NCBI RefSeq assembly: GCF_004115745.1
Contig: NZ_QXIL01000005.1
Coordinates: 1 to 64,000 of the forward strand
Origin: Levilactobacillus suantsaii
GTDB lineage: Bacteria > Bacillota > Bacilli > Lactobacillales > Lactobacillaceae
Direction: 5' to 3'
Length of the DNA stretch: 64,000 bases
How positions within the stretch are numbered: the first letter of the stretch is position 1; every line of letters starts with the position of its first letter. Below are positions 41,393-60,428 of this stretch, one piece after another. Below the pieces are notes generated by a model. That model searched no databases. It was not told the origin of the DNA and saw only the letters and a list, made by a program, of their open reading frames with translations. The position numbers and the translations under genes were made by a program.

Positions 41393-44300
41393 GTGAAATT
41401 CATGCGGAATAAAGCTTTTTACGGTGATCCGAAGCTGAGATACAAGATGTTTAAGGTTGGGAAGATCTGGGTCTTCACTGCTATGGCATCGTTCTCACTT
41501 TTGGGGGCACCTCAAATGATGGCTCATGCGGATACCTCCGCACAAGCTGAAAGCAGTAGTGTAGTTACTAAGGATACAACGACAGAGTCTGAGATCCAGT
41601 CTAATTCGAGCAGTACTAGTAGTGCGGCGACGAGTTCGAGCGCCGCAAGTAGCAGTTCGAGTAGTACCAGTAGCAGTTCAGCTACCAGTTCGAGCGCCAC
41701 GAGCAGCAGTTCGAGTAGTACCAGTAGCAGTTCAGCTACTAGCTCGAGTGCCGCAAGTAGTAGTTCGAGCAGTACCAGTAGCAGTTCAGCTACCAGCTCA
41801 AGCGCGAGTAGTGCAGCTTCAAGCAGCGTAACTGTCGCCAGTGAAGCCCTGAGTTCAGCTACGACGAGTTCTAGTGCCACGTCAGCGGTCAGCGCAGCCA
41901 CAACTGAATCGAGTCAAACATCGGCGGTGGCCACTAGTACGGCTACGGCCGACCAAACGATTAATTCGGCCGCAAGTTCAGCCGCCGCAACTGTTGCGGA
42001 TGTGACGTTAACGACTAACATTACGTCGGCCGTCACCCAAACGACTACGACTAGTAAAAGCGCTACGACGGCCGTGGCCACTGCAGCAACTGTGTCGTCT
42101 GCAGCGTCTACAGAATCGGCTGCGGCATTAACTGCAGAGGATAAGCTGAGTAGCGAATATGCTTCAGTTGCCACTGCAGCTGCTAGTACCGCGGCTAGTG
42201 CGTCTTCCGCTGCGATGGCTGCCAGCAGCTATGCAGAAATATTCAATACTTCTGGCGCCTCTTCTGTTTCGACTGATAACCCAGTTTCGGCCGCTAATTC
42301 AGTGGCTCAAAGTGCTTATATCGCAACATCAACGGCTGCTGACTTAGCCTTGCACTACAATAGTTTGGCATCAATGTATATAGATGCATTAGATGTCGCT
42401 TCGGTACCATCAGACATGTCGATTAGCTATGGAAAAGCTTCAACGGCCGCAGATTCATATGTTCAAGCAGCCGTTAGTTACGCTAGTGTAGCTACAAGCG
42501 CAGCCGAAGCGGCAGAATTAGCGGCAGCTCAAAACCTTAATAGTTTGGTCAGCAGCACGAATAGTACGACTTACTCTGAAGCCAGTGCCGCGAATTCCAT
42601 GGCTACTACGGCTTCGGCGGCAGCTAGTGCCGCTTATGAGTCGATGCAATACGATAAAACCAATTCGACAGCTGCAAACGCTTACTCGCAAGCCAACAGT
42701 GCTGCTAAGGTTGCCTCGAGTGCCGCGATTACCGCTAACAGCTTAGCGACTGCCGCTCAAGCAGCTTACAGCACAGCCAATAGTGCCGCTGAAAGTGGCG
42801 ATTACACGGCAGCCAGTGATGCTTTAGTCACGGCTCAAACATTAGCCAGTCAAAGTAGCGATAATTATGCTATTGCCAGCACCGCAACCAGCACGGCTGA
42901 ATCGGCGGCCAGTCTGGCGACGACTACAACGGTCAGCACAGCCGCAAGCATGGCCAGCAGCAGTGCTCAGTTAGCGGCTAGTTCCGCAACTGACGCAACA
43001 AGTTATGCCAGTGATGCCGCTCAGTATAGTGGCGGATCGCAGTCTGCACTGTATGTTGTAGCGGCTTCTGAATATGCATCTACTGCGCAATCAGCAGCGG
43101 CAGTAGCCAGCAGCGCGGCATCTGCGGCAGCGGTAGCATCGACTACCAAAGAAGCTAATTCGTTATACCGGGTAGCTTCGAGTGCGGCTAACACGACACA
43201 GGAAGCAACCTTACAAGCTTCGAGTGCCGCCATGTACGCGCAAGAATTTTACGCAGATGTTGATAATGCACAAACTGGTGAAGATAGTAGCGTTTCAGTA
43301 GCAGTGGATGTGACGAACGATACTTTATCTGTTGGCGACAGTGTCAATATTGATGCCACCGTTTCGAATTCAGCATCACTTAGTTCAACGTCAAATATTA
43401 CTTATACTTGGTATATGTCGACAGATGGTAAAACCTGGACACAGGTCCAGACTTCAGCATCAACGACTTCAAGCAAAACGGATAGCTACACGGCAACAAT
43501 AGCCTCGGCAGGAACTTATTACTATCAACTCCTTGTTACTGGGAAAAAGGGCTTACTGGGAACCAGCTTTAGTGTAGCATCTGATGTTGTAACGGTCGTT
43601 GTAACGGATGAAAACGGGGATTACACAACGCAGGCGAAGAGTTCAGCAAGTCTGGCATCGGATTACGCTTCAGCGGCTAATTCTGCAGCCACTGCAGCAA
43701 GTTCGGCAATCGACAACATGTATGACATTGCCAATGTAAGCGGTGTTACGCCAAGTTCTTACGCGACTAAAGCCGTTGCTAGTTACAATGAAGCTAGTTC
43801 GTACGCAACTTTAGCAACTTCAGCCGCTACAGCAGCTAGTGAAGCCCAAAGCTTAGCCGCTGAAAACGAAACTAACGGGAGTTACGATCTCGCGAGTTCC
43901 TACGCGGTTAACGCGGCTTCTTATGCGACGGTTGCCAGTTCATACAGCGTTCAGACCAGTACGGCGGCAAGCACTGCATTGAGTTATGTTGATACGGCCT
44001 TACAGAAAGCGGCTGCGGGTTCTGGACAGGACTCAACCGCGAATTATTTGGCTTCCAGTTATGCGGAAACGGCGGCTTCCTTAGCTAGTGCGGCTTCTAG
44101 TGTTGCCACTATAGCTAATTCGCACGCGAACGATGCGAACAATGCTTACTCGTCTGCACCGGACTTTAATTCAACCGCAACAGATTATATGAATGCGGCT
44201 AATTCAGCAGCTAGTGCGGCTGCTTCTAACGCGGCGGCTGCCAGTTCAGCAGCTTCTTTAGCGGCAACCTTTACGGGATCAGACTTCGCTGAAGCCTCTA

Positions 44301-45826
44301 GTGCCGCCGATGACGCGAACACTTATTTGGCTCTGGTCAATGATAATCTTAGTGCGGCTTCTAGTGCTGCCGCAGCAGCGACCCAGAGCGTGGTTGATGC
44401 GCAATCATCTTATACAAATTCCGTTGCCACGGCAGCGACTGAAGCTGCTTCAGCAGCTAATGAATTAGGCTCCTCGGCGGCTTCGGTTGCTTCATCCTTA
44501 GCAGCAGCTAATACGACTAATACGAGTTTAGGGGCTTCCTACACAGCTATGACCGCCAGTTATGCTCAAGACGCACAATCCGCGGCAGCAATGGGCAGTG
44601 AAGCGGCTTCGGCAGCGACAAGTTACATGACGATGGCCTCTTCAGCAGTTGCAGCTGGTAGTTTCAACGAAGCTAGTTCTTATGTCACTGCCGCAAATGA
44701 TGCCATGTCTGAAGCTAGTTCTTACGCTACGGCGGCGACGACTGCTGCTAGTTTGGGTAGTTCGGCAGCGGTGGACGCAGTAAATTACTCGAATAACCTG
44801 TCATCCTGGCAGTCAAAGCCAACAGGTGATGCCACGAAGATCTTTGGCTGGACAGTTTTGGGCGGGATTACGCAACAACCTGCTACGGTAACCTCGACGA
44901 CTTCCGGAAGTACCTTTACGTTAACGGGGGCGGCTAGAACTGGCGCAATCGCAGTTAATGGCGCAACGAAGGCCTACTGGTATGTTCAATATAATGGAGA
45001 ATGGTATAATCTTACGACGGGTAATGTCCCGGATGTTATTACAGTGAGCCAGGCAGCAAATACGAGTGTCTGGGATTTGGCTAACCTTTCCAGTACCTTA
45101 ACGGTAACGGTCGATTCTAGTTTTACCGGAAACCTAACGTTCCAATTCCGTGCGGCTTATGGCTTGTCGACAATATCGTACACCACCAATTACTACAGTA
45201 ATTTAGCTGAAGTCGATGTTTACGATAAGGACATTGACGCATCAGGAATCGAAGTCTCCGGGGATGACTACCTGTTGAACACCGAAACGGGTGTTTACAC
45301 GGCTACCACGAATCCGGGGAACGCTACGGGAACAATTACTTGGACCAGCAGTGATACGTCGATTGCAACTATTAATGATGATGGTTATGTTGCCCCAGTG
45401 ACTGGTGCAAGTGGAACGATTACGTTGACGGCCACAATCACCAACGCAGATGGCACCACTTATTCGGCCTCGAAGGAAATTACAATCGGTAGCGGACTGG
45501 AAGATCAAACAGTCGATGCAGGTAGTAAACTTGACTGGAAGCCAGTTGGTGGTACCACTTCCGATGATGACTCTGTCACTTATCAGTGGTACTACTCCAC
45601 AACTGATGCCACTTCTGGTGGTACGGCAATTTCCGGAGCGACAGATGCAACTCTGAGTTTAAGTAATGTTAAGTCCAGCGATGCAGGGTACTACTACCTG
45701 GTTGTAACATCTGGTACAGCAACGACTACGTTAGGTGCCGGTCAATTGACGGTCAACGCAACGGCTAGTGAAGCTGCTTCATCCTCCGCAACGATGGCGT
45801 CTTCTGCGGCTAACGAAGCCGGATAA
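41393..45826 (+). CDS. Giant Ser/Ala-rich surface adhesin with KxYKxGKxW signal (N-terminal ORF, cut by a TAA)
   Basis: Secreted protein; this frame encodes 1477 aa. The N-terminus RYKMFKVGKIWVFTAM matches the KxYKxGKxW signal motif (Phe in place of Tyr), with likely cleavage after MMAHA. Residues about 50-200 are a Ser-rich tract with an 18-aa unit (ATSSSAASSSSSSTSSSS) in three copies. Long Ala/Ser-rich helical blocks (SSYAS, AASSAAS and similar) make up most of the rest. Three beta domains interrupt them: an Ig-like domain near 630-745 (YTWYMSTDGKTW...YYYQLLVTG), a Big_2-like domain near 1285-1365 (ITWTSSDTSIATINDDGYV) and an Ig-like domain near 1370-1450 (YQWYYSTTDATSG...DAGYYYLVV). GTG 41393 follows AGGAGG. 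The frame stops at TAA 45824-45826, yet the same frame continues seamlessly, so the intact protein would be about 1950 aa. The Ser load and the adjacent glycosyltransferases suggest an O-glycosylated adhesin. Confidence 0.85.
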   Translation: MKFMRNKAFYGDPKLRYKMFKVGKIWVFTAMASFSLLGAPQMMAHADTSAQAESSSVVTKDTTTESEIQSNSSSTSSAATSSSAASSSSSSTSSSSATSSSATSSSSSSTSSSSATSSSAASSSSSSTSSSSATSSSASSAASSSVTVASEALSSATTSSSATSAVSAATTESSQTSAVATSTATADQTINSAASSAAATVADVTLTTNITSAVTQTTTTSKSATTAVATAATVSSAASTESAAALTAEDKLSSEYASVATAAASTAASASSAAMAASSYAEIFNTSGASSVSTDNPVSAANSVAQSAYIATSTAADLALHYNSLASMYIDALDVASVPSDMSISYGKASTAADSYVQAAVSYASVATSAAEAAELAAAQNLNSLVSSTNSTTYSEASAANSMATTASAAASAAYESMQYDKTNSTAANAYSQANSAAKVASSAAITANSLATAAQAAYSTANSAAESGDYTAASDALVTAQTLASQSSDNYAIASTATSTAESAASLATTTTVSTAASMASSSAQLAASSATDATSYASDAAQYSGGSQSALYVVAASEYASTAQSAAAVASSAASAAAVASTTKEANSLYRVASSAANTTQEATLQASSAAMYAQEFYADVDNAQTGEDSSVSVAVDVTNDTLSVGDSVNIDATVSNSASLSSTSNITYTWYMSTDGKTWTQVQTSASTTSSKTDSYTATIASAGTYYYQLLVTGKKGLLGTSFSVASDVVTVVVTDENGDYTTQAKSSASLASDYASAANSAATAASSAIDNMYDIANVSGVTPSSYATKAVASYNEASSYATLATSAATAASEAQSLAAENETNGSYDLASSYAVNAASYATVASSYSVQTSTAASTALSYVDTALQKAAAGSGQDSTANYLASSYAETAASLASAASSVATIANSHANDANNAYSSAPDFNSTATDYMNAANSAASAAASNAAAASSAASLAATFTGSDFAEASSAADDANTYLALVNDNLSAASSAAAAATQSVVDAQSSYTNSVATAATEAASAANELGSSAASVASSLAAANTTNTSLGASYTAMTASYAQDAQSAAAMGSEAASAATSYMTMASSAVAAGSFNEASSYVTAANDAMSEASSYATAATTAASLGSSAAVDAVNYSNNLSSWQSKPTGDATKIFGWTVLGGITQQPATVTSTTSGSTFTLTGAARTGAIAVNGATKAYWYVQYNGEWYNLTTGNVPDVITVSQAANTSVWDLANLSSTLTVTVDSSFTGNLTFQFRAAYGLSTISYTTNYYSNLAEVDVYDKDIDASGIEVSGDDYLLNTETGVYTATTNPGNATGTITWTSSDTSIATINDDGYVAPVTGASGTITLTATITNADGTTYSASKEITIGSGLEDQTVDAGSKLDWKPVGGTTSDDDSVTYQWYYSTTDATSGGTAISGATDATLSLSNVKSSDAGYYYLVVTSGTATTTLGAGQLTVNATASEAASSSATMASSAANEAG
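41627..41788 (+). repeat. 54-bp tandem repeat (three copies) in the Ser-rich tract
   Basis: Three 54-bp units each encode ATSSSAASSSSSSTSSSS with one Ala/Thr change in the middle copy. Copies are nearly identical at the DNA level, so recombination could change copy number. Confidence 0.75.
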
Positions 45827-47245
45827 TATGCTTCCGTCGCAAATTCTTACGCGAATGTGGCGGATCAATATAGTGGTCAGAATTCGGCAGCTAGCTCATA
45901 TGCAGCTCAAGCTACAAATGCTGCTAGTGAAGCTGCTTCTGCAGCCACTGCTGCTTCTTCCGCGGCTGCAGCTGCCTCCGAAGCTTATGAAAATGCTAAT
46001 TCCGCTGAAGCAGCGGGTGATAACTCGGCTGCTCAAAGTCACGCTGCAGAGGCCTCTGATGCAGCATCTACTGCAGCAGAGTCAAAAGACAAGGCTTCTA
46101 GTTCAGCCAGTGATGCGCACTCTTACGCTAATTTAGCAATTGGCGCTGAAGATAATTCTGATTCCGATGATAGCGATGACGAAGGCGACAGTGACGCAGA
46201 CTCCGATAGTGATACCGATTCCGACACTGACAGTGATACGGACTCTGATAGCGACACTGATTCGGATACTGACAGTGATTCCGATACTGACAGCGATACG
46301 GACTCTGATAGCGACACGGACAGCGATACCGACACCGATAGCGATACGGACTCTGACACCGACAGTGATTCGGATACTGACAGTGATACGGACAGCGATA
46401 GCGACACTGATTCGGATACCGACAGTGATTCCGACACTGACAGCGATACGGACTCCGACACCGACAGTGATACTGACAGCGATAGCGATACTGATTCGGA
46501 TACTGACAGTGACACGGACTCCGATAGCGATACCGATTCCGACACCGACAGCGATACGGACAGCGATAGCGATACCGACAGTGATATGGATTCCGATAGC
46601 GACAGTGACTCCGACACTGACAGCGATTCCGATACTGACAGTGATACGGACTCTGATAGCGACACCGATGCAGATACCGGCTCAGCAGGTGATGCTGGAA
46701 CTGGCAACGGTAATGGATCCAACACTGGTTCCAACACCAATAATGGATCTGGGACTACTACCGGTGGCACTAACAACGGTTCAGGAACCACGACTACTGG
46801 AACCACTAATGCAACGAACAGTGGGGCTGGTAACCAAGGAACCGCTACGCAAACGGCAGTGGCAACCAACTTAGCTGCAACGCCAATTTACCGGGGTGTC
46901 AACCCAAGTGAAACGGCAACGGCAGCAACGGCGTCAGCACCACAAGCACCGGCACCGCAAGCACCAGTTGATTTGACCACTGCAGCTTCAGCGGATCAAG
47001 CAGTCAGCGATTCTGATTCCGATACTAACAATTCGGATAAGAAGCAAGCAGCCAACAAGAAGAAAGCTGCGGATGGCTCGCAAGCTGCAACCGCGGGTGA
47101 AACGAATGACGGCGTCAACCGCTCAGCTGATGAGCAATCGGATCACAAGACGTTGTGGGGTGCTCTTGCAGCCGCCCTCATTGCCTTGGCTGGTGGCTCC
47201 TGGTGGTTCTTCGCTGGCAAGCGGCGTAAGCACGATGATAATTAA
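45827..47245 (+). pseudogene. C-terminal part of the surface adhesin, stranded behind a stop codon
   Basis: This segment is in the same frame as the adhesin and begins [17 protein letters not shown], directly continuing the Ala/Ser helical pattern on the other side of TAA 45824-45826. It encodes 472 aa: about 105 aa of helical repeats, a Ser-Asp/Thr-Asp stalk (46153-46680), a Gly/Asn/Thr linker, [10 protein letters not shown], a hydrophobic helix ([20 protein letters not shown]) and the tail [10 protein letters not shown]. No ribosome site precedes the first in-frame GTG (45857), so separate translation is unlikely. A CAA to TAA change is the simplest explanation for the stop. An LPxTG sortase motif was looked for and is absent, although the hydrophobic helix and basic tail look like a sorting signal. 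Confidence 0.75.
46153..46680 (+). repeat. Ser-Asp / Thr-Asp dipeptide repeat stalk
   Basis: About 175 codons of near-perfect (S/T)D dipeptides with GAY-AGY/TCY/ACN codons. The DNA repeats in 6-, 12- and 18-bp periods. This resembles the SD stalk of Clf/Sdr surface proteins and is prone to length change by slippage. Confidence 0.9.
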
Positions 47246-47336: not shown

Positions 47337-47385
47337 GCGTACATATGAGTTTTTAAATTTAATGATTAAGGTGGGCGGTTATCCA

Positions 47386-49038
47386 ATGAAGAAGACAATT
47401 GTGAAAGAACTCAAAGCGCGGGTGGCTGATTTAGGCGACCTCTGTGATGTAGCGACCGGGACCTTTACTTTGGCGGTCTCAACGTCTGATCAGCGACACC
47501 GAGACGAGGTCCATTTCTTCCGGGGAACGAGCTTTAATCAGGCCTGGGACCAAGTAGCAACGCTCATGGCATCGACACCCAATACAGCCTGGGTCCGCAT
47601 CGACGTGCCCCAAGCCATTCAAAAGATTGAACTGAGTCGGTTGCAGCAGCAACTGAAGAAACTATTTCGGATGAACTATTGGCGCCGGGGAATTAGCTTT
47701 GATTCCGACTTTAAGACCGCATTACTAGAAATGGAAATCAACGGTCATGAGTTCATCAGGCCCGGGAAAGGCCATAAAATTGGTAAGACGGCCTCCAATA
47801 GCTATCTTGATTTCCCGGCTATGACAAAGTACCTGACCCGCCGCAATGGGGAACAACCACAAGATTTGGCTGAGTCTTCATTTGTATGGACGTTTTTGAC
47901 GGCAGGCATCTTCTATGATGGCGATAAAATTCGCAAACTGAGCCAAGATGTCCATGGCCAGGGGATTCGCCAACTGACGGATTTGAATACCGAGTTACGC
48001 ACAACGATTACAGCAGGCGAAGCTTTCTTATGCCGGCAAATCAAAGATAGCGGTCAGTTTATCTATGGATACTACCCAGCCCGGCAACGTATCTTGAGCA
48101 GTTATAACAGCGTGCGCCATTTTTCCTCGCTTTACGCTTTATTGGAAGCGATTAATTTTACGGGGCGAACGGCAGATCTGCCCAAAGTCAAGTCAGCGCT
48201 TCAATGGGGAATTAAAAACTTGGTTCTTACTAAAGGTGACGCCATCTTCGTCAGTGAACCCCGAAAAGATGGTAGTATTGAGTTGAAGCTGGGCGGTCAG
48301 GCAATGCTGATGTTGGCACTATGTAAATATCAAGAAGTCACCCAGGATGATGAGTATTTACCCATCATCCAGCAAGCTTTTGCTGGAATCACGAGTTTCT
48401 TGAAGCCGTCAGGACAGTTCAATCACGTGCTCAATGCCGACTTAACGGTCAAAGATGCTTTCCGGATTATTTACTATGAAGGGGAAATCACCTTTGCGAT
48501 GGCGCGTTACTATGAACTAGTTCCTAACGACCAGGTTGCGCAACTGATGCAACAAACTTTGGACTTTATGGTGGCGCACCATTACGGTAAGTACCATGAC
48601 CACTGGTTGTCTTACGCTATTAATGAAGCCTTGCAGATTTTCCCAGCCAACCGTGATTACATGCAGATGGGGTTGGAGAACGTCTACAACCATTTGACCT
48701 TTATCGAGGAACGGGATACGTCTTACCCGACCTTGTTGGAACTTCTGGATGCGGCAATCAAGATGACCGATCTCATTAAGCGAACCGGTAACGATGATTT
48801 GCTGGCGCCATATGATTTAGGCCGGCTCCATCGGGCTTGGCGTTACCGAGCGAGTTATGAACTGGAAACGGGAAGCTTCCAGCCAGAACTGGCGATGTAC
48901 TTTTACCATCCATCGAAATTCGTTGGGGGCTTCTTCGCCCGGCACGACCACTTCCGGACGCGAATCGATGATTGTGAACATTTCCTATCAGGACTGCTTA
49001 ACTACTATAGCTATACCAATCAAGGGGTGAGCCTATGA
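47386..49038 (+). CDS. Unknown 550-aa protein of the glycosylation cluster, possible (alpha/alpha)-barrel fold
   Basis: No family is recognised with confidence. The N-terminal 130 residues look alpha/beta (LAVSTSDQRHRDEVHFFRG). The rest is mostly helical with repeated hydrophobic helix pairs and sequences such as GQFIYGYYPARQRILSSYNSVRHFSSLYALLEA, LGGQAMLMLALCKY, FRIIYYEGEITFAMARYYEL and WLSYAINEAL. This helix-hairpin spacing resembles six-hairpin glycosidase-like folds, so a sugar-processing or lipid-linked glycan role is possible but not shown. No signal peptide or membrane helix is present. ATG 47386 follows AAGGTGG; an in-frame ATG at 47362 lies before that site. The gene overlaps the next by 4 nt and leads a run of glycosyltransferase genes. 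Confidence 0.6.
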   Translation: MKKTIVKELKARVADLGDLCDVATGTFTLAVSTSDQRHRDEVHFFRGTSFNQAWDQVATLMASTPNTAWVRIDVPQAIQKIELSRLQQQLKKLFRMNYWRRGISFDSDFKTALLEMEINGHEFIRPGKGHKIGKTASNSYLDFPAMTKYLTRRNGEQPQDLAESSFVWTFLTAGIFYDGDKIRKLSQDVHGQGIRQLTDLNTELRTTITAGEAFLCRQIKDSGQFIYGYYPARQRILSSYNSVRHFSSLYALLEAINFTGRTADLPKVKSALQWGIKNLVLTKGDAIFVSEPRKDGSIELKLGGQAMLMLALCKYQEVTQDDEYLPIIQQAFAGITSFLKPSGQFNHVLNADLTVKDAFRIIYYEGEITFAMARYYELVPNDQVAQLMQQTLDFMVAHHYGKYHDHWLSYAINEALQIFPANRDYMQMGLENVYNHLTFIEERDTSYPTLLELLDAAIKMTDLIKRTGNDDLLAPYDLGRLHRAWRYRASYELETGSFQPELAMYFYHPSKFVGGFFARHDHFRTRIDDCEHFLSGLLNYYSYTNQGVSL

Positions 49039-49238
49039 CAATCGTGGGAGCAGTAATTGCTTATAAGAATATTCAGTTTTTCTTGCGCATGCTGCTATAC
49101 ATCATTTTGGGTATTATTGTTTTATGTGTTCGCGCGCATAATAAGAAGAAGACCCGTAAGCGTATCGATAAGCGGACCGAATATATGATGAAGCACACCA
49201 AGAAAGACCGCAATGGTAAGTACCCGTGGGAATATTAA
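49035..49238 (+). CDS. Small single-span membrane protein in the glycosylation cluster
   Basis: 67-aa protein: an N-terminal membrane helix of about 22 residues (FFLRMLLYIILGIIVLCV), then a strongly basic tail (HNKKKTRKRIDKRTEYMMKHTKKDRNGKYPWEY). No family is recognised. It overlaps the upstream gene by 4 nt (ATGA) and is followed after 19 nt by the first glycosyltransferase, so it is translated as part of the operon. It could tether soluble glycosyltransferases to the membrane or to the Sec channel; that is speculation. Confidence 0.65.
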   Translation: MTIVGAVIAYKNIQFFLRMLLYIILGIIVLCVRAHNKKKTRKRIDKRTEYMMKHTKKDRNGKYPWEY

Positions 49239-49257
49239 GTAGAATGGAGTGAGTGCC

Positions 49258-50781
49258 GTGTTTTACTTTATTAATGAATATATTTTGCAAAAAAACTCAA
49301 GTGTTGAACATACCGCGATGAAGCGGGTCAAATTGTTCAACCATTACAAACAACCCGCTAAAATCGTAACCAAGATTTATGACCGGCTCCTGCACCGGAC
49401 GATGGACACCTTTGGGTTGGGAAATCATGACGTTGTCAACATGTTCGACTTCTTTCAAGAAGCTACCGATTTGGGGACCCCGAAAGTCCTACATACGGAC
49501 GACATTCACCTGCCAGTTGAATCGGAAGTCATGGTTGGAGCCAACTTCAGCCGGGTCTTTGAAGGTGACGTGCAGACCGGTAACGTCGGCTTTATCCCGG
49601 GCACCATTGGCCGAGTTTTCTACCAGGAATTCATGGATTCGCTAGGTAACGTGATTGAGACTGATCTGTGGGATTGGCGGGGGTTCAAGTCCGCTACCCA
49701 GTACTTTGGTCAGAACGGGAAATTGATGATGCAACGGTACTACACCCCGACTGGACGTATCGTGATGGATGAATACCTGGTTCCGGATACGGCAGGGAAC
49801 CCGCTGACATCGCGAATTATCTTGAAGAATTATCAAGGGAAGGGTGACCGGTTCTTCCAAAACAGTGACGATTTGTTTAGCTTCTTCTTGGAAGAGTTAG
49901 CTCGCCAGGATACTGGTCAGACCACCTTTATCGGTGACCGGCCGGGAACGGCGGTTCAACCGTTATTGGGCTTGACCAGTGCGGCGAAGAAATACCTGTA
50001 CTTACCGATTAATCACGTGAAGGACCCCAGTGATCCCTTGCACGCGGAACTCGACGGTTTCTTACAACCGGCCTTCGAGCATTACCAACAGTTTGATGGC
50101 TTTATCACGGCGACCACCAAGCAAGCTGACCACTTGTCCGCCCGTTTTCCGGGCATCCGGGTGGCGGCCGTACCACCGGTCACCACGACGCCGGCTAACA
50201 AGACCAAAGTGGTTCCGGTCACCGAACGGCCGGGGCACCAATTGCTATACGTGGGTCGGATCGCGCCAGACAAGCAAGTCGACCAACTCTTACGGATGTT
50301 TGCCTTGGTCAAGGACCGTGTTCCTGACGCCTCCTTTGATTTGTACGGGTACGGTCAAGCCGATTATGTCAAGCAAATGACTGCCTTGGTCAAGGAATTG
50401 AACCTGACGGATGCCGTAACCTTTAAGGATTACGACCCGCAACTGAGCCAGCATTACGACCGCTACCGGGCGATGGTCAACTTGTCCTTAGCCGATGCGG
50501 AACCACTCGGAATGCTGGAAGCCCTGAGTCATGGCGTTCCGGTCGTCAGTTATCCATTCAACTACGGCCCAAAGGAAGTCCTCGAATCGGGCACCAACGG
50601 GTACTTAGTCGCTCCTGGGAATCCACTCGCTGTGGCTGAAAAGATCGCCGACTTGTTCAAGGACCCCGATTTGTGGACTAAGTTGAGTACGGCGGCGTAC
50701 CATACGGCGCATACCACTTGGACGCAACAAAAGGTCTGGAACCGCTGGCAGAAGCTTTTAGGGCAACCAGTATTGGCGTAG
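49258..50781 (+). CDS. GtfA/GtfB (TagE5/TagE6)-like GT4 glycosyltransferase, first paralogue
   Basis: GT-B enzyme of 507 aa. The N-terminal MFYFINEYILQKNSSVEHTAMKRVKLF is the hallmark of lactobacillus TagE-type enzymes; the nucleotide-sugar half has LLYVGRIAPDKQVDQLLRMF and EALSHGVPVVSYPFNYGPKEVL. In Lactobacillus plantarum two such paralogues (TagE5/TagE6, renamed GtfA/GtfB) are both needed for protein O-glycosylation; others glucosylate poly(glycerol phosphate) teichoic acid. The paired copy next door and the Ser-rich protein upstream favour protein glycosylation. The EX7E motif reads DAEPLGMLE, so the first Glu position is Asp, while the partner has a normal EX7E. GTG 49258 is chosen from GGAG spacing and family N-terminus. 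Confidence 0.82.
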   Translation: MFYFINEYILQKNSSVEHTAMKRVKLFNHYKQPAKIVTKIYDRLLHRTMDTFGLGNHDVVNMFDFFQEATDLGTPKVLHTDDIHLPVESEVMVGANFSRVFEGDVQTGNVGFIPGTIGRVFYQEFMDSLGNVIETDLWDWRGFKSATQYFGQNGKLMMQRYYTPTGRIVMDEYLVPDTAGNPLTSRIILKNYQGKGDRFFQNSDDLFSFFLEELARQDTGQTTFIGDRPGTAVQPLLGLTSAAKKYLYLPINHVKDPSDPLHAELDGFLQPAFEHYQQFDGFITATTKQADHLSARFPGIRVAAVPPVTTTPANKTKVVPVTERPGHQLLYVGRIAPDKQVDQLLRMFALVKDRVPDASFDLYGYGQADYVKQMTALVKELNLTDAVTFKDYDPQLSQHYDRYRAMVNLSLADAEPLGMLEALSHGVPVVSYPFNYGPKEVLESGTNGYLVAPGNPLAVAEKIADLFKDPDLWTKLSTAAYHTAHTTWTQQKVWNRWQKLLGQPVLA

Positions 50782-50794
50782 AGGGGGAATGACG

Positions 50795-52394: not shown

Positions 52395-52826
52395 ATGGAT
52401 CAAACAACCAGTTTAGTGGTCGACATTGACGGGACATTATGTGACTTGAAGACGTCGGAACAAAGTTACCTAGACGTGGCGCCGAAGACGCAAGTGATTG
52501 ACCAATTGCGACGCTACCAGGCCGCGGGATTTCATATCATCTTGTTTACGTCACGGCAGATGCGCACCTACAAGGGCAATCTCGGAAAAATCAACAAGTA
52601 CACGGCGCCCATGACCGCCCAGTGGCTGGCCAAATACGCGGTGCCCTACGATGAGATCCTCTTTGGTAAGCCCTGGGCGGGTCGTGGGGGATACTACATC
52701 GATGACCGGGCGTTTCGGCCCAGTGAGTTTATCACCCGCCCGAGGAACTGGAAGCGTTGGTCGCAAAGGAGCGTGACGTGCATTGAGGCGAACTCTAGTG
52801 ATGCTATCAGCCGCCAAGGTGGCTGA
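52395..52826 (+). CDS. HAD-superfamily capsule-biosynthesis phosphatase (EcbF/BcbF type), C-terminus frameshifted
   Basis: Small HAD phosphatase of about 143 aa. The nucleophile motif is VVDIDGTLCDL, motif II is ILFTSRQMRTY, and the family pattern GNLGKINKYTAPMTAQWLAKYAVPYDEILFGKPWAGRGGYYIDDRAFRPSEF is almost exactly that of EcbF/BcbF capsule phosphatases. After RPSEFITRP the frame becomes RNWKRWSQRSVTCIEANSS. One base off, the DNA encodes EELEALVAKERDVH and ends at TGA 52784-52786, overlapping the TTG start of the next gene as expected in an operon. A 1-base deletion near 52740-52742 explains this. The catalytic core is intact, so activity may survive. ATG 52395 follows GGGAGAT. Confidence 0.8.
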   Translation: MDQTTSLVVDIDGTLCDLKTSEQSYLDVAPKTQVIDQLRRYQAAGFHIILFTSRQMRTYKGNLGKINKYTAPMTAQWLAKYAVPYDEILFGKPWAGRGGYYIDDRAFRPSEFITRPRNWKRWSQRSVTCIEANSSDAISRQGG

Positions 52827-54432
52827 AGATATGCAAAATAATTTTGGTTCTATCTATCCCGCCATGATTCCCGTGACCGATGGTGAACGGATCATCGACC
52901 GAACCGTGACCCAGTATGCGGCCGCTTACGACCGGTTATTTATCGTGGTCAACGCCCAAGACACCACGATTACGGATTATATCCAAACTAAGCACTTAGT
53001 TATCAACCCCCTGGTGGTCGCCGATGGGCTGAGTCTGAGCGAGTCGGTCGCCCAGGCTTTGGCCCAGTTGCGGGACCAGGAACCGCTGGGAACCTTAACC
53101 ATCATCTTTGGCGATACCGTGGTCAAATCTGACGCCGTGACCCAACCGGACGTCATCTTGACGCACACGGTCGCCGACGCTGGGCGGTGGACCACCGTTA
53201 CGGTCGATGACCAGCACCATTTAGCCTTTAACGATAAGGTTGTGCCAGTCCCGACCAGCGAAACACTGCACGCTGCCGTGGGGGTCTTTACCCTGAGTGC
53301 GGGCGACTGGTTAGCTGAGCACTGGCAAGGCCAGCGGGGATTTTATGATAATTTATGTCGTTATGACCAGTACCAAACCTTGACGCCGGTAGATGCCCCC
53401 CACTGGATGGACTTTGGTCATCGTGATAAGTACATCGAGGCCAAAAAAGCGGTCGAAGCGCGGTTCTTCAATCACACGACCGTTGATTTCAAACGCGGCA
53501 TTTTGCGCAAAGAGAGTACCGATGTCGACAAATTCCTAGGTGAAATCAAGTGGTATTTGAAGCTGCCCAAGCGTTTGACTTACTTGGCGCCGCGAATCTT
53601 TGACTATTCGTTGAACTACAACGCACCGTTTGTTGAAATGGAATACTTCTCGTACGAGAGTCTCCATAATCTCTTTTTATACGGCAACTTGGAGATTGGG
53701 GTCTGGCGGGAGATTATCGACGAACTCTTCTTTTTGCGGGCCGAAATGGAACGCTACCAGGTGGACGTGGATGAAAGCGAGTATCGAACCACGGTCAGTG
53801 AAATGTATCTGACTAAAACCACTGACCGATTGCACCGGCTGATCAAGGAACAGGATTTCTTTGCTGAGATTGCCGATAAGCCGTTACAGATCAACGGTCA
53901 GACTTTTCCTAGTCTGACGACTATTTTGACAGCGCTACCGGAAGTCTTGGCTCAATCGGGCGTTTTGATCGGTCACCGGTTCAGCATCATTCACGGGGAC
54001 TTTTGTTTGAGCAATGTCTTGTACGACAACACGCAGCGGGTGATGCGCTTGATCGACCCGCGGGGTAAGTTCGGGCGCTTCGACATCTACGGGGATGCCA
54101 AGTACGACTATGCCAAGATGATGCACAGTTTTTCGGGCAAGTATGACTGCATTATTTCGGATATGTTCCAACTTGAGGCGGATACAACGGGAAAAATTAA
54201 CTACCAGTTAGATGTGACGGGAAATGAACAACAGGTCGGTGAGCTCTTCGAACGACAATTGCAGCAACATCTGGGGGATACAACGGTTTATCGTCAAATC
54301 CAACTGATTGAGGCGTTGCTGTTCTTGAGTATGATTCCGTTACACAAAGATAAACCAGAACGTCAAAAGGCCATGTTGGCGGTCGGGGTCACTAAGTTTG
54401 CGCCGTTTATGGCTCAAGTAAGGGAGGATTAG
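52783..54432 (+). CDS. Fused nucleotidyltransferase-like / APH-fold kinase
   Basis: Protein of 549 aa with two parts. Residues 1-225 look like a sugar-nucleotidyltransferase (GT-A-type) domain: LVMLSAAKVAEDMQNNFGSIYPAMIPVTDGERIIDRTV and a central FGDTVVKSDA. Residues about 240-549 form a choline/aminoglycoside-kinase-like domain with the catalytic loop IIHGDFCLSNVLYDN and the metal motif LIDPRGKFG. Such fusions occur in capsule loci and suggest activation of a sugar, polyol or choline-like group. TTG 52783 has AAAGGAG 11 nt upstream and overlaps the corrected stop of the HAD gene; ATG 52801 is the alternative. Substrate unknown. Confidence 0.72.
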   Translation: MRRTLVMLSAAKVAEDMQNNFGSIYPAMIPVTDGERIIDRTVTQYAAAYDRLFIVVNAQDTTITDYIQTKHLVINPLVVADGLSLSESVAQALAQLRDQEPLGTLTIIFGDTVVKSDAVTQPDVILTHTVADAGRWTTVTVDDQHHLAFNDKVVPVPTSETLHAAVGVFTLSAGDWLAEHWQGQRGFYDNLCRYDQYQTLTPVDAPHWMDFGHRDKYIEAKKAVEARFFNHTTVDFKRGILRKESTDVDKFLGEIKWYLKLPKRLTYLAPRIFDYSLNYNAPFVEMEYFSYESLHNLFLYGNLEIGVWREIIDELFFLRAEMERYQVDVDESEYRTTVSEMYLTKTTDRLHRLIKEQDFFAEIADKPLQINGQTFPSLTTILTALPEVLAQSGVLIGHRFSIIHGDFCLSNVLYDNTQRVMRLIDPRGKFGRFDIYGDAKYDYAKMMHSFSGKYDCIISDMFQLEADTTGKINYQLDVTGNEQQVGELFERQLQQHLGDTTVYRQIQLIEALLFLSMIPLHKDKPERQKAMLAVGVTKFAPFMAQVRED

Positions 54433-54434
54433 AC

Positions 54435-55169
54435 ATGCAACTTGTGATTACGATGGCGGGCCGCGGGTCGCGGTTCAAGCGGGTCGGTTACACCCAGCCC
54501 AAGCACGAAATTGAGGTGCGCGGGAAGACTTTATTTGAATGGGCGATGCGCTCACTGCAGGACTTTATCCACGAAAAGTTCTTTTTTGTGGTCCGGCAGG
54601 GACAGTACGACCCGGACCGGCTTAAGGAATTGATTGCGGCCGCTGGGATTCAAAATTACCAGTTGGTGGAGATTGATGCCTTGACATCGGGGCAAGCGGC
54701 GACCGTCATGGCGGCCTTGACCGTGGTGAACCCGCTGGAAAGTGTCGCGATTTATAACATCGACACCTACGTTGAACCCGGTCAAATTCTGCGGTCGGAT
54801 TTGACGAATTGTACCGGTCATTTGACCACCTTTTCCGCGCCGGGCGACCACTGGTCATTCGTGAAGTTGAACGATCAGGGTCAGGTGGTTGACGTGGTCG
54901 AAAAGAAACACATTTCATCGTTAGCGTCGGTCGGGTTTTATTACTTTGACCGTTTCTTGGATTTTGCCAACCTGTACCACCATCACGCGGCCCAGGTCCG
55001 TGAAGATTACGGCGAGACCTTCGTGGCCTCGTTTTATCATTATTTGATTCAAGATCACCCGGGGACGGTGACCACCAAGGAGATTCCGGCGAAGACGGTC
55101 CATGTGTTGGGTACGCCGGAAGAATTGGCCGTTTTTCGGGACGCTAAAAAGCCGTCAACGACGGACTAG
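54435..55169 (+). CDS. Sugar-phosphate nucleotidyltransferase-like protein
   Basis: Protein of 244 aa of the NTP-transferase fold. The N-terminal nucleotide loop reads VITMAGRGSRFKRVGYTQPKHEIEVRGKTLFEWAM, a variant of the usual AAGxGxR-x-PK motif (MAGRGSRF ... QPK). YNIDTYVEP takes the place of the metal-binding Asp region and VEKKHISSLASVGFYYFD is the product-binding region. It starts 2 nt after the kinase fusion stop with GGAGG upstream. Together with the HAD phosphatase and the fused kinase it could make a nucleotide-activated donor for the glycosyltransferases around it. The sugar is unknown. Confidence 0.75.
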   Translation: MQLVITMAGRGSRFKRVGYTQPKHEIEVRGKTLFEWAMRSLQDFIHEKFFFVVRQGQYDPDRLKELIAAAGIQNYQLVEIDALTSGQAATVMAALTVVNPLESVAIYNIDTYVEPGQILRSDLTNCTGHLTTFSAPGDHWSFVKLNDQGQVVDVVEKKHISSLASVGFYYFDRFLDFANLYHHHAAQVREDYGETFVASFYHYLIQDHPGTVTTKEIPAKTVHVLGTPEELAVFRDAKKPSTTD

Positions 55170-55181: not shown

Positions 55182-57057
55182 GTGCGAACTGTGTGGGCAG
55201 TCATTTGTGGAACGTTACGGGACGAAGTGGATTTTCGGTTGATGCTGGACTATTTGTTGCGGTGTCGCGACCAAGGCATCATTCAGGGTATCGTGTTGAG
55301 CACTTGGCGCGATGAGGTGGCCACCATTCCGGGTTTGGACCAGCAATTAGCTGCCAATCACGTGGCGGTAGTCACCTCACAGCCGCTCGAAAAGAAAATC
55401 GGTCGCTCGACGACGAACTCCTTTAATTATTGGCGCCAAGCCACACAGCTTCAGGCGGCTTTGGATTTTATTCCGGACGACGCCATCGTGATCAAGACCC
55501 GAACGGACCGGGCGTTACCGGCAACACGAAAATTGATGAAGATGTTGGATGAGCCGGATCCCTTGCCGTTGGTCCGTGAAGTGGCCGAGCAACGGGGCCT
55601 CACCGCGTTCCCGCAGGAATTTCACCGCCAAATTGCCATTTTCAAGGCGCGGTCTGGCCGGTTGGTCCAATTCGCGGACTTTGCGTTTATGGGGTATCGC
55701 GAGGATATGGCAAAGCTAATCAACTTTGACGCCGCCGAGTTATATCTGAACCGGGAATTAGTTGCTAACATCCAGTTTTTCATTTACCCGTTCGTCCGGG
55801 ACTATCCCGTTTTGCGTGATTACTATCGAGTCATTAATTTTCGGTTCTTGCTAAGGGATCTTAAGACCTACACAGAACAGGGGGGAACCCAATTTCCGCA
55901 ATTTTTCCAGCGGCTTTACGCGACGTACTTTGGGTTGCTTGCCACCCATTTTCGTATCGGTACTTTAGTTGCCGCGAAGAGTTTAGGCAAGGTGACTTTG
56001 CCCATCGAATTTTCCGACTTTTTCCATTCCGGTCAAGCGGGGCATTTGCGCCACAATGAACTCGGGGTCACTTTTAGGTCGCAAACGATTTTGGACCAGT
56101 TTTTGGCTCAACCCGTTACTGCGGAATCGACAGAGCCTAAACGTAAGCACTGGTGGCGTAAGTCGGCACCCGAACCCGAACAGCCACCAGTTAAAGAAGT
56201 GGCGACCAAGAATATTCTGCAAAAATTACAGCACCCCACGGCGGACCTTTTTGGTCGGATGACATCGGCGGAATACCAAGAGATGCAAGACTTTCGGCAG
56301 AATAAAGACTTCTCGCCGCGTGAGTGGTTGCGACCATTGGCGTCACCTTTAGCCGACCAACCGGGGGATTATGCCCAGTCAGTTCAGTATCAGTTGCCGG
56401 GTATCACGCCAGATCAAGCTGCCAAAATTTGGCGAACTTGCGAACGGGATGGGCGCGTCAGTCAGACCTTACTTGATTTCTGGTTGGAACACGATTTACA
56501 ACCAGCCGATAGTGCCCCTTATTTGATGAGTAGCGCTCGCACGGGGAACCGTTTCAGTACCTTGGTCGTGGGTTGGTTGCTCCGCCAGGGGGTCTTATCA
56601 CCAGGTGATCAAGCCGAAGCCTTGCGGCATCACGGATTTCTTCGGGCGTTTTCATATGCAACATCACCGGATGGACGCCGAAACGGCCGGTTATATTTTG
56701 GCCCGGTATCTATACTTTGTGGACCAGGGAAAACCGGTTGCCAAGAACAGCGTGGTACAGACCAAGTTCGTTTTTCAGGCGTTCTTCCCCACGGGATTTA
56801 AGGTGTTTGAAGAGGCAGTTGGAAAGGACCCGCAGAAAATGATTGCGCTGTTCGATGCCGAAATCGAACGATTACGAAAAGCTCAGAAACGTAAGACCCG
56901 TCAACGGGTGGTCGAAATGGCCTTAGAGATTACCCACGACGTCAAGTATTGGACGTATTTACAGAAGTTCTTCAACGGCCGGTTCAAGCGTTATGAACAA
57001 ACATACACCTATTTGGTGAAGCACCAGCTGTTTGGACCGATGAAACAAGCGAAGTAA
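55182..57057 (+). pseudogene. WavE-like glycosyltransferase, broken by a +1 frameshift
   Basis: The first frame (from GTG 55182, after AGGAGGG) starts TVWAVICGTLRDEVDFRLMLDYLLR and has VLSTWRDEV and the motif AIVIKTRTDRALP, matching the WavE family of cell-surface polysaccharide enzymes. A Pro/Glu-rich linker (about residues 325-345) leads to a helical C-terminal half. After EALRHHG the sense frame shifts: the other frame continues FFGRFHMQHHRMDAETAGYILARYLYF and runs to TAA 57055-57057. Removing one T from TTT at 56637-56639 restores a single frame of 624 aa. As sequenced, the first frame ends at 56801 with nonsense. Either a recent mutation or a sequencing error. Confidence 0.72.
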
Positions 57058-57237: not shown

Positions 57238-58923
57238 ATGAAACCACTAACGATGCGGCAAATTTCAGCAATCGTAGGCGGAAAATGGGTGAAGGCACCA
57301 GCAGATATGGATCAACCTGTGCTGCATTATGCCCTGTATAAGGGTGAGTTGCGACAGGATATCGGGCCGGCAAATCTACTTTTTGCGATGTCGCTCAAGC
57401 ATTGGCAAGCGGGGACGAAAAACACCGGAATTTACGCCACGACGTTTCGTGACAATCATTCAATGGTTTTAACGCTACAGCCGTACATAGGAATGGCCAT
57501 TGTCGAACGGCCGGTTACTGAAGCCGAAGTTCCTCAATTGATGGTCCCAAACGCGTACGATGCTCTGGAAAAATTAGTCGTTGCGACGGCCAAAGATTAC
57601 ACCGGTAAGAGTATTGGCGTCACGGGGACGGTCGGTAAGAGTACGACCAGAAAATTTATCGCAGACTTACTGAGCCACATTGGCACGACCAGCACCACAC
57701 CAGGGAATCTCAACTCCCGGACCAGTGTCAAAATTCAGGCGATGAACCACGATTGTCGGCAATTCAACGTTTTAGAGATTGCTGCTACGGGACTGAGCTA
57801 CAAGGAACCCGGTCACGGGTTGGGTGGCGTAGCGTCGCTATTGTCGCTTGATTTGGCTGTCTTGACCCAAGTCGATGCGGGGCAAAAGGGCTGGAGTGCC
57901 AGTCGCACAGCGGACATTAAGACTCGGATGGGGGTCGCTTTAAAACCTGGTCAACCATTTTTAGTCAATGCGGACATTAAGAATATTGCGGAAGTTAAAA
58001 CCGACGTCTACCGGTTCACTAAAAATTTGGTCACGTACGGATTGGCTGCGGATAGTGATTATCGGGGGCAAGTCACGGATGGCCAATTAACATTATTTCA
58101 CGGGGAAAATAAGCTGACGACGCTATCGGTATCGGGATTAGATACGGGGACCATTAGTGATGTGATTGGCGCCTTAGCTGCCTACGATTTACTAGGAGGT
58201 ACCATGAGTTCCGCGATTATGGCCGAGTTCAGTCAGCAGTGCGCACATACAACTACCCGAAAAGTAATGCATTTTGAAGCGAATGAACGCCATGTCACGA
58301 TTATTGATGACACGCATAACGCTGAGCGACTATCGGTTAAGAATTTTATTGATTATGCCCAGAATTATCCTGTTGGGGAACGGACCCGAAAGATTTTTAT
58401 TGCGGGACGCATCATCAATTTGCGGCAGCACGCTTACCAGGTCCACAAGGAAGTCCTGGAATCATTAAATCAAGCGCATTTTGATCACTTTTATCTTTAT
58501 GGACCGGAAATCGACCAGGTGATTCCGGTAGCCCAACCAGGGACTTTTGCTGGTTACTATACGACACCCAATCAGATTTTACGGGCAATTGCTGCGGAAC
58601 CACACCAAGATTTGGTCATCTTTATCAAGGGAAGTAGCCGAGATAGCACAATCGATTCAATTGCCCCGCGGTTAGCAAAACGGTTGGCCTATACAAGTAG
58701 TGATCATAATCATTTTGCCATGTCGGTCGTGGCGGAAAATGAGGCGGCATACGTGACCATCGGTGTTGGCCGATTATTGGTCGTTTTGGAGGTACTTAAA
58801 CGCCTGGCGAACGGTAAATTACGGTTGACGGACCAGGTGCCCATCGTCACGGATCTAGCGGCGGAACGCAGTGTCAACAAGGTCGACGTCCGCAAGGGGA
58901 CCAGCTATTGGTCTATGAATTAG
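57238..58923 (+). CDS. MurF-like Mur ligase with start of a PBP-like (S11) domain
   Basis: 561 aa. The Mur-ligase part has an N-terminal MurF-type segment (TMRQISAIVGGKW), the ATP loop GVTGTVGKSTTRKFI (about residue 125), GNLNSRTSVKIQ and the C-terminal EANERHVTIIDDTHNAERLSVKNF. This is the MurF-related fold also used by CapB of poly-gamma-glutamate systems. From residue about 495 the sequence changes to FAMSVVAENEAAYVTIGVGRLLVVLEVLKRLANGKLRLTDQV, which aligns with the start of S11 D,D-carboxypeptidases, but the Ser-x-x-Lys motif is replaced by GVGR. The frame ends in the middle of that domain, and the following gene continues it one base out of frame. GAGGAGG precedes the ATG. Confidence 0.75.
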   Translation: MKPLTMRQISAIVGGKWVKAPADMDQPVLHYALYKGELRQDIGPANLLFAMSLKHWQAGTKNTGIYATTFRDNHSMVLTLQPYIGMAIVERPVTEAEVPQLMVPNAYDALEKLVVATAKDYTGKSIGVTGTVGKSTTRKFIADLLSHIGTTSTTPGNLNSRTSVKIQAMNHDCRQFNVLEIAATGLSYKEPGHGLGGVASLLSLDLAVLTQVDAGQKGWSASRTADIKTRMGVALKPGQPFLVNADIKNIAEVKTDVYRFTKNLVTYGLAADSDYRGQVTDGQLTLFHGENKLTTLSVSGLDTGTISDVIGALAAYDLLGGTMSSAIMAEFSQQCAHTTTRKVMHFEANERHVTIIDDTHNAERLSVKNFIDYAQNYPVGERTRKIFIAGRIINLRQHAYQVHKEVLESLNQAHFDHFYLYGPEIDQVIPVAQPGTFAGYYTTPNQILRAIAAEPHQDLVIFIKGSSRDSTIDSIAPRLAKRLAYTSSDHNHFAMSVVAENEAAYVTIGVGRLLVVLEVLKRLANGKLRLTDQVPIVTDLAAERSVNKVDVRKGTSYWSMN

Positions 58924-60428
58924 TCACCGCTGCTATCGTGGCGTCGGTTCCGGATGTCATTCTTAATTTGGCGGAATATCTGTATGGCAGTAACCATAAA
59001 GCGTTCATTGGGGTTCAACATATGGGTCGGACCTTAGGATTAACGGCAGATACCACGCATAACATTACCGGTCGGCCAACGAAGCGGGCTCAACGAACGT
59101 ACCTGGCGGATCTGAAAAAAATTGGGGCGGCTTATTGCCAACTCCCAAACGAAGTCTTTAGTTTATTGGGCGCACAACACGCCATGTTCAATGGCCACTG
59201 GCTGCAGAAACGGTCGCAATTGACGAAGACGGGTAAAACGCTAGGCTCGATTTTTCAAGATCAACAAGAGCGGACAGGGCTGCTGTTTTGGGTCGCTAAG
59301 CGGCAAAAACACGTGTTGGCAGTCTTGGATAGTCCCCACGTTGCCTATGCGGATGCGTTAGCAGAGGATATGGTGACCGTAGACGCACAGCCAGGGACAC
59401 CAAAGGTCGAATCCGTTACGTTGACGAGTCCAGTGGTCAACTTCTTGGCGGATACTTATTTTGGCGAGGACTATACGCGGCGCCGCAAGCGACACGGCAG
59501 GGAAGATGCTCTGCAAAAATTCGGCTATAGTCATTCGTTTGAAAAGCTCCGTCCATTCTTTGGGCGTGATGCGTACAATGTCTTTAACTTTGAAGCAGTA
59601 TTTGCCCAGGGGGTGAGTCCATTAGATGCCGTCAAACCGTTCGTCTTAGATGCGGCTGCAGCACCAACGTTAGCTGAGTTTAAGCATCTTCATTTTAATT
59701 TAGCTATGTTAGGGAACAATCACGCCAACGACTACGGGTCACGGGCACTGTCCACGACACTGACTCAATTTAATCAGGCGGGAATCTCGACCATTGGCGC
59801 GGGAAATGACCGGTTAGAAGCTCGTAAAATCGTTGAATTGACCTACGGCAATCAGCAAGTGGCGTTGTTTAATGGGTACTGGTACCGTAATCCAGCATAT
59901 AATCTGTTTGATTTTTACGCGAGTGCGGACCATGCCGGGGTGAATTGTCTAGATACGATGATGGCTGATGATATTCGGCAATATAAACAGAGCCATCCAG
60001 GGGCGACGGTCATCGTGAGTGCACACTGGGGGACCGATTACGGGGTCATTAAACCCGCGCAACGGACGACCGCTGAACGACTCGTGCGGGCGGGAGCGGA
60101 CTTAATTATTGGTCATGGGCCCCACCGTCTGCAACCGATCGAATACGTGGGGGCCGTACCAGTCCTTTACAGCATTGGCAATGGTGTCTTCAATAACGAT
60201 GGTGAGTTTGAACGCCGGGGGGTTCCGCCGTATGCGGCGGTTTTACGGTTAGATTTGGCCAAGCGACAACTCTATTGGTGCCCCATCTACGCCAATAACC
60301 TAAAAACTTTTTGGCAACCGGACTTTGTCTCGGCCGCTGACTTTGAGAAGGTGGCCCAGTTCAATCAACCGCGGTTTGCAGTGACGCAGTTGGCGGGGAA
60401 CGTCAATGCCCTAGTCCTCCCATTTTAG
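58908..60428 (+). CDS. CapA-family protein with the remainder of a PBP-like (S11) domain
   Basis: 506 aa from TTG 58908, overlapping the MurF-like frame by 16 nt. The first 140 residues (ELVTAAIVASVPDVILNLAEYLYGS... LGLTADTTHNITGRP) continue the S11 domain cut in the previous frame: this corresponds to the SxN region, where SGND is SVPD, and LTKTGKTLG keeps the KTG box. The rest is a CapA metallophosphatase-like domain: NFLADTYFGEDYTRRRK, LAMLGNNHANDYG, IVSAHWGTDYG and IGHGPHRLQPIE. AAGGGG lies upstream of the TTG, so separate initiation is possible, but the split domain argues for one original protein of about 1060 aa broken by a 1-base deletion. CapA proteins act in poly-gamma-glutamate capsule or related polymer systems. 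Confidence 0.75.
   Translation: MVYELVTAAIVASVPDVILNLAEYLYGSNHKAFIGVQHMGRTLGLTADTTHNITGRPTKRAQRTYLADLKKIGAAYCQLPNEVFSLLGAQHAMFNGHWLQKRSQLTKTGKTLGSIFQDQQERTGLLFWVAKRQKHVLAVLDSPHVAYADALAEDMVTVDAQPGTPKVESVTLTSPVVNFLADTYFGEDYTRRRKRHGREDALQKFGYSHSFEKLRPFFGRDAYNVFNFEAVFAQGVSPLDAVKPFVLDAAAAPTLAEFKHLHFNLAMLGNNHANDYGSRALSTTLTQFNQAGISTIGAGNDRLEARKIVELTYGNQQVALFNGYWYRNPAYNLFDFYASADHAGVNCLDTMMADDIRQYKQSHPGATVIVSAHWGTDYGVIKPAQRTTAERLVRAGADLIIGHGPHRLQPIEYVGAVPVLYSIGNGVFNNDGEFERRGVPPYAAVLRLDLAKRQLYWCPIYANNLKTFWQPDFVSAADFEKVAQFNQPRFAVTQLAGNVNALVLPF

Follow-up and report, generated by a model that had tools for sequence, protein, structure and literature searches.

We have analysed a 64-kb window of the genome of Levilactobacillus suantsaii (2.43 Mb in 70 contigs) in which the genes from 41393 to 60428, all on the + strand and with short gaps or overlaps between them, encode a giant surface adhesin followed by a series of enzymes. 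The order is adhesin, U558, M67, two glycosyltransferases (GT_A and GT_B), a HAD phosphatase, NTAPH, NT, a putative transferase, and finally a gene with Mur-ligase-like and CapA-like parts. An earlier note on this DNA had described such a same-strand run, and this is confirmed; the genes it listed are present, except that the 550-aa unknown (our U558) and the 67-aa gene precede both glycosyltransferases and do not follow them. It had also suggested that surface protein and enzymes belong together and that the set exceeds the classical serine-rich repeat protein (SRRP) system. Both ideas are supported. The arrangement recurs in relatives of the same genus, which makes it more than chance. We conclude that the locus is probably a modification cassette for the aspartate-containing dipeptide-repeat stalk of one surface protein. 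U558 is its constant component, and what the adhesin shares with those of distant relatives is the stalk, not the Ser/Ala-rich region.

The N-terminal part of the adhesin (41393 to 45826, + strand) carries a KxYKxGKxW signal, as noted earlier (30.1 bits, cut-off 18), followed by a region dominated by serine (20%), alanine (23%) and threonine (14%). The previous description of a Ser/Ala-rich adhesin holds for this part; it had missed an in-frame stop, an acidic stalk and the lack of an LPxTG motif. After a TAA at 45824 to 45826 the same frame reopens and runs to 47245 (continuation 45827 to 47245, open reading frame (ORF) 45857 to 47245), with a further Ser/Ala-rich segment, the stalk, a linker and a hydrophobic tail. 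The stalk (46187 to 46678) consists of 82 dipeptides of the form x-Asp (xD), mostly Ser-Asp (SD) and Thr-Asp (TD), and the region matches the SdrC model from 46154 to 46792. No LPxTG is found in the tail, nor is there an LPxT in the last 90 residues of any of 20 relatives' tails, selected by the motif TLWG...GGSWW...KRRK. This conserved tail (47150 to 47242 in the window, and also in relatives L015-L072; L and G numbers are our labels for loci and genomes) may serve as a membrane anchor or as a distinct sorting signal. The small M67 (49035 to 49238, 67 aa), with one hydrophobic segment by eye, adjoins the adhesin also in three relatives (L153-L155) whose locus is without U558.

The signal brings to mind the accessory Sec pathway. 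As the earlier note had stated, SecA2 and Asp2 are not in the window (contig C55). Elsewhere in the genome, where that note had proposed to look for secA2 and secY2, SecA-model matches lie on contigs C2 and C11 and an Asp2 match on C2, which holds an accessory Sec locus with GtfA, a GtfB-like protein, Asp1-3, a SecY2-like protein and SecA2. This C2 locus (L018:4033-18971, L019:1-3612) adjoins its own 2765-aa KxYKxGKxW protein, one of the eight matches to this signal in the genome. Among 35 Levilactobacillus genomes Asp2 was detected in seven, SdrC-model matches in 29 and both in four. Asp2 is missing from 25 of the 29 SdrC-positive genomes, so the stalk adhesin is not generally in need of accessory Sec, and dependence on that pathway was rejected.

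U558 (47362 to 49038) is the most revealing gene of the locus. Residues 199-550, numbered from 47386, have the predicted fold of an alpha/alpha toroid of the AGE/cellobiose-2-epimerase class, and 23 of the 55 invariant positions of U558 fall at the mouths of six toroid helices (random mean 7.5; one in 20000 draws as high). In sequence, one of 42 U558 members matches the Pfam family GlcNAc_2-epim (E 0.013). Some records annotate U558 relatives as poly(glycerol-phosphate) alpha-glucosyltransferase, a name for which the predicted fold gives no support. A phage origin was considered and rejected: just eight records of the phage collection match U558, all at <60% identity (their neighbours were not looked at). 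A literature search, covering mostly titles and the beginnings of abstracts, returned no description of U558 with repeat stalks.

The association with stalks extends far beyond the family. From 140 stretches encoding U558 we kept 80 named loci (Enterococcus 25, Levilactobacillus 22, Acinetobacter 11, Lactiplantibacillus 8, Pseudomonas 7, others 7) and searched them for xD tracts of at least eight dipeptides. Such a tract, of the form (S/T/A/G)D, was present in 60 of the 80, in Bacillota as well as Pseudomonadota. By our reading, 18 of the 20 tract-less loci run into the end of the contig or of the locus (10 from Acinetobacter, plus L128, L089, L111, L118, L147, L102, L113 and L115), and the tract is truly absent in two, L082 and L103. 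One of the cut Acinetobacter loci (A. nosocomialis), once extended, was found to encode a giant adhesin with an 8-dipeptide tract near its N-terminus. The tract protein is located 5-6 kb from U558 in six of the seven Pseudomonas loci, and in the one that was scanned HlyD, ABC and OEP genes lie between the two. A second collection came from a plasmid search (54 records, 7 fetched), and all seven fetched loci have an xD tract; they are from S. lugdunensis, S. simulans, E. gilvus, Klebsiella aerogenes, Nitratireductor, Rhizobium and S. epidermidis. The tract reaches 602 dipeptides, mostly Ala-Asp (AD), in S. simulans and 224, AD, in Nitratireductor; these two and S. lugdunensis (there in two pieces) have Mur-ligase genes 3' of U558.

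Three of these distant loci deserve a separate comment. In S. epidermidis (L166), the gene immediately behind sdrF codes for a hypothetical protein related to U558, and next to it, on the opposite strand, comes a glycosyltransferase. The Klebsiella aerogenes plasmid (L163) encodes a U558-GT4 fusion 3' of type I secretion genes and of SD-repeat fragments annotated as clumping factor. In E. pallens (L106) a sortase gene stands between the SD-stalk proteins and U558, and behind U558 come HAD, NTAPH, NT, CapA, a putative transferase and a Mur-like gene, that is, the module of the window at 27-50% identity.

The two glycosyltransferases downstream of M67, TRANSFERASES, are Sdg-like. Both GT_A (49249 to 50781) and GT_B (50789 to 52336) are GT4 enzymes, in agreement with their earlier recognition as glycosyltransferases, and their best NCBIfam models are SdgA (218 bits) and SdgB (270 bits), scores that are far under the curated cut-off of 800. 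The GtfA model scores lower (100.3 bits for GT_A and 164.3 bits for GT_B, with a cut-off of 574.6), and a GtfA/GtfB-type SRRP identity is not supported by these scores. Among solved relatives of GT_B the sequences 7ec1/7ec3 (SdgB) score 201 bits, Gtf1 115 and TarM 107; the 7ec1 sequence is identical to 7vfk, which is named SdgB (PMC8561734). In S. aureus SdgB and SdgA modify SD repeats with N-acetylglucosamine (GlcNAc) in successive steps (PMC3794999); the minimum motif is DSD (PMC8561734).

A simple explanation of the locus, and the view taken in the earlier note, would be ordinary O-glycosylation, in which the GT pair adds a sugar, the other genes lengthen or cap the glycan and U558 is a sugar-processing helper. 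The adjacent GT pair, the predicted fold class of U558 (that of sugar epimerases) and the resemblance of HAD, NTAPH and NT to nucleotide-donor enzymes all speak for it. However, the residue at position x tells against it. Twenty-four of the 60 tract loci have an SdgA/B-type GT (a class that here includes relatives down to 27% identity) within 7 kb, and the fraction of Ser plus Thr at x is at least 0.68 in every one of them. The other 36 lack such a GT within that distance, and in 21 of these the Ser plus Thr fraction is below 0.2, the stalks being mainly Ala-Asp or Gly-Asp. All these counts concern loci related by descent, with no tree correction. A Mur or CapA gene is found within 7 kb in 15 of the 21 Ala/Gly-Asp loci vs 10 of the 39 other tract loci, genes beyond 7 kb, as in several Levilactobacillus, being uncounted. 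In E. lactis, which combines U558 and a Mur ligase with a pure AD stalk, no SdgB-like match was found at E<=1e-8 (the search gave two in E. avium and one in A. pittii). U558 is therefore independent of Ser/Thr glycosylation, and since it accompanies Ser-, Thr-, Ala- and Gly-Asp stalks alike, the residue common to all of them is aspartate. Together with the fusion of U558 to a Mur ligase in Pseudomonas, this makes the purely O-glycosidic explanation unlikely.

Fusions of this kind are informative about the partners of U558. Eight of the 80 loci encode a U558-Mur ligase fusion, seven from Pseudomonas and one from Magnetococcales (Pfam was run on two of them); a U558-GT2 fusion is found in Enterococcus L104, to which L105 and L108 are 71-74% identical in that part, and the Klebsiella protein is joined to a GT4. 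Fusions to three different enzyme types speak for U558 as a chaperone or docking factor that handles acidic repeat proteins without catalysis of its own and leaves all the chemistry to its partners, much as GtfB is the chaperone in SRRP glycosylation (PMC5796085). We consider this role for U558 possible, if rather doubtful, given that its invariant residues line the toroid mouths and that six of the 21 Ala/Gly-Asp loci have U558 without any Mur ligase or CapA within 7 kb.

Within the genus, U558 was detected in 25 of the 35 genomes (in four of them as a match in two pieces). SdrC-model matches occur in 24 of the 25 genomes with U558 and in five of the 10 without it. This is a weak association, and the argument rests on adjacency. 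Where the stretch is long enough the site is flanked by rluD/nadK at one end and by cutC, rlmA and trmL at the opposite end (e.g., L070, L093, L100). Between them the downstream modules differ by species: GT_A plus GT_B, other GT4s, HAD-NTAPH-NT with putative transferases (in 13 relatives), and CapA or Mur-CapA, one or the other being found in 12 of the 35 genomes, all 12 of which also hold U558. In a sample of 251 genomes of the family U558 was present in 19. In 18 of these the SdrC model is matched with a best E of at most 3.6e-22, and the listed matches lie just upstream of U558 on the same contig. SD-like tracts alone are common, since SdrC-model matches at E<=1e-8 occur in 71 of the 251 genomes, five of those without U558 scoring 6e-24 to 9e-22.

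The 19th genome, L. brevis ATCC 14869 (G084; L070/L103), has no SdrC-model match at E<=1e-8. There the adhesin is gone and U558 is broken into three ORFs, and M67 and both GTs are intact. The coincidence of adhesin loss with a broken U558 speaks for the stalk-cassette reading. It also bears on the idea that the genes make a cell-wall polymer, such as teichoic acid or exopolysaccharide, and are neighbours of the adhesin by accident, their Mur- and CapA-like enzymes making or ligating wall polymer. That idea draws on the relationship of TarM to GT_B, on the presence of CapA and capsule-phosphatase families and on the poly(glycerol-phosphate) glucosyltransferase annotation of some U558 relatives. 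The joint decay in L. brevis and the repeated adjacency to xD stalks in Gram-negative as well as Gram-positive genera (with type I secretion genes as neighbours in three of the Gram-negative ones) make it very improbable. On the question of whether relatives carry the cluster without the adhesin, raised by the earlier note, the answer is mixed: L. brevis ATCC 14869 keeps the GTs and the 67-aa gene with U558 in pieces, and in L. andaensis (G252) U558 and the adhesin are on separate contigs.

Behind the GT pair come the genes of the presumed donor and of further transfer. The HAD phosphatase (52380 to 52826), confirmed from the earlier note, is of the EcbF/BcbF type (139 bits, cut-off 162). Two nucleotidyltransferase-type genes had also been proposed, rightly. 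The first, NTAPH (52783 to 54432), has a weak nucleotidyltransferase-like domain fused to an APH-type kinase domain, and no PDB sequence match at E<=0.1; the second, NT (54435 to 55169), is sugar-nucleotidyltransferase-like. The next gene (55182 to 57057) is frameshifted, with ORFs 55182-56801 and 56605-57057. Its earlier label, WavE-like, was dropped, as Pfam gave no match for the window ORF 55182-56798 (E<=0.01) or for two intact relatives (E<=0.1), and the best PDB match of its model had E 0.02, with none at E<=0.001. Many of the PDB rows listed for this model are nucleotidyl- or glycosyltransferases, and we have kept the name putative transferase.

The last gene (57238 to 60428) encodes a Mur ligase, an S11/beta-lactamase-like domain and a PGA_cap (CapA-like) domain. 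Separate MurF- and CapA-like proteins had been described before; the two parts are recognizable, in what is a single gene (1072 aa in five relatives) split in the window into 57238-58923 and 58908-60428. The Mur-ligase-like part is MurF-like in sequence and scores 128.6 bits with NCBIfam murF, under the cut-off of 288.6. The CapA-like part has a clear PGA_cap match (PF09587, 156.6 bits, cut-off 27) and a short one to the MslH model (41 bits, far under the cut-off of 700). An active DD-peptidase was rejected because SxxK was not seen where expected in the S11-like domain (by eye, in printed sequences). We also rejected a poly-gamma-glutamate (Pgs/Cap) system, as the locus proteins scanned matched neither the CapB nor the CapC model, and anti-phage defence, with no PADLOC match for four proteins.

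The cassette is partly broken in this strain, with three genes damaged. Besides the stop in the adhesin, the putative transferase is in two frames here and in a single frame of ca. 600 aa in the 16 aligned relatives uncut by a contig end, and the Mur and CapA frames, which overlap, align to residues 8-562 and 559-1072 of the 1072-aa relative. These three lesions may mean that the window cassette is a dead remnant or, alternatively, may be assembly errors. We regard the chances of this as evenly poised; against it, U558, M67, both GTs, HAD, NTAPH and NT remain open frames with lengths about as in relatives, and the matter concerns this strain only.

How could such a cassette work? In intact relatives the adhesin would be made in the cytosol, where U558 would engage the acidic xD tract, either as a catalytic enzyme or as a docking part, and partner enzymes would then attach substituents to the stalk. 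The SdgA/SdgB-like GTs would place a sugar, which in staphylococci is GlcNAc, on Ser or Thr of SD and TD units, and the putative transferase at 55182-57057 would draw on a nucleotide-activated donor supplied by HAD, NTAPH and NT. The Mur-ligase/CapA protein could add a second substituent through an ATP-driven amide bond, for which the Asp side-chain carboxylate is the likeliest site because Mur ligases also accompany pure Ala-Asp stalks; its S11-like domain, SxxK missing by eye, may bind rather than cut. We know of no Mur ligase that uses a protein as its acceptor. Once decorated, the adhesin would in most species cross the membrane through ordinary Sec and stay attached by the hydrophobic segment at its C-terminus; M67 would be its small partner in the membrane. 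In short, stalk modification is probably modular here, with aspartate as a possible target of the Mur ligases; this chemistry is a proposal. A broader version can be put forward tentatively, though we would sooner doubt it than affirm it: that U558 is the hallmark of an undescribed and widespread modification system, a toroid enzyme that reads or primes the xD tract and passes it to interchangeable partners, including a MurF-like ligase that builds amide-linked substituents on Asp side chains.

Several observations weigh against the stalk cassette. Half of the genus genomes without U558 keep SdrC-model matches, so U558 is optional, and in L. brevis ATCC 14869 the GT pair is intact without any SD match. 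The N-terminal 198 residues of U558 are uncovered by structural matches, and the modification chemistry itself is a proposal. Outside the family, an SdrC search over whole genomes picked up just 8 of the 16 distant genomes with U558 (E<=1e-4); those without a match are six of seven Acinetobacter, one of four Pseudomonas (L128) and one Alkanindiges (L147). The SdrC model misses short tracts, and the extended A. nosocomialis with its eight dipeptides is among its six Acinetobacter non-matches; besides that one, the tract was unseen in these SdrC-negative genomes. Mur or CapA genes lie within 7 kb in only 38 of the 80 loci, a count that leaves out more distant genes. The rule for residue x is drawn from related loci (the 24 with a GT are all Lactobacillaceae) and from an SdgA/B type that takes in relatives down to 27% identity; there are few cases from Klebsiella, Enterococcus and S. 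epidermidis. Finally, the broken copy in the window may do nothing in this strain. Even so, we still think a cassette for the dipeptide stalk the probable reading.

The matter is of some general interest, as SD-repeat stalks belong to known adhesins such as SdrF and ClfA, whose modification, in the abstracts and excerpts at hand, is described as O-GlcNAc. If U558 and its partners do modify the aspartates, a family annotated as hypothetical or as poly(glycerol-phosphate) glucosyltransferase would gain a role in many genera, the enzymes neighbouring Ala-Asp stalks, which have no hydroxyl, would be explained, and Mur-ligase chemistry would extend to protein side chains.

Mur-type amide ligases beyond MurC-F are familiar: CapB/PgsB and cyanophycin synthetase carry out ATP-dependent ligation to a carboxylate, and cyanophycin synthetase acts on the Asp side chain. 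The window sequence differs from these in being MurF-like. MslH, a metal-dependent lasso-peptide epimerase, acts on a ribosomal peptide (PMC10406935); the resemblance here is a short model match only, far below the cut-off. The accessory Sec/SRRP systems (GspB, Fap1) have in common with the window locus the KxYKxGKxW signal, a large Ser/Ala-rich protein and GtfA-related GT4 enzymes, but the window locus is without SecA2/SecY2/Asp and without LPxTG, and it has an acidic dipeptide stalk. The Gtf1/Gtf2 pair of Lactiplantibacillus plantarum we take to be TagE5/TagE6. This O-GlcNAc system is likened here by description, and also has paired GTs that glycosylate low-complexity regions (PMC5796085). 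SpcB of Lacticaseibacillus rhamnosus, a species without annotated accessory Sec, is likewise an Ala/Ser-rich KxYKxGKxW protein of giant size, and some strains have a GtfA-type pair close to it; in contrast, it has an LPXTG, and a dipeptide stalk, U558 and Mur-CapA go unmentioned in the excerpted text (PMC3584209). Staphylococcal SD-repeat glycosylation (SdgA/SdgB with ClfA and SdrC/D/E) shares a GT4 pair beside a surface protein with a serine-aspartate stalk; its enzymes provide the best NCBIfam models for both GTs, and SdgB is the best solved relative of GT_B. To this plan, and going beyond anything named in the excerpts of the staphylococcal papers, the window locus adds U558, M67, the donor-type genes, the putative transferase and Mur-CapA.

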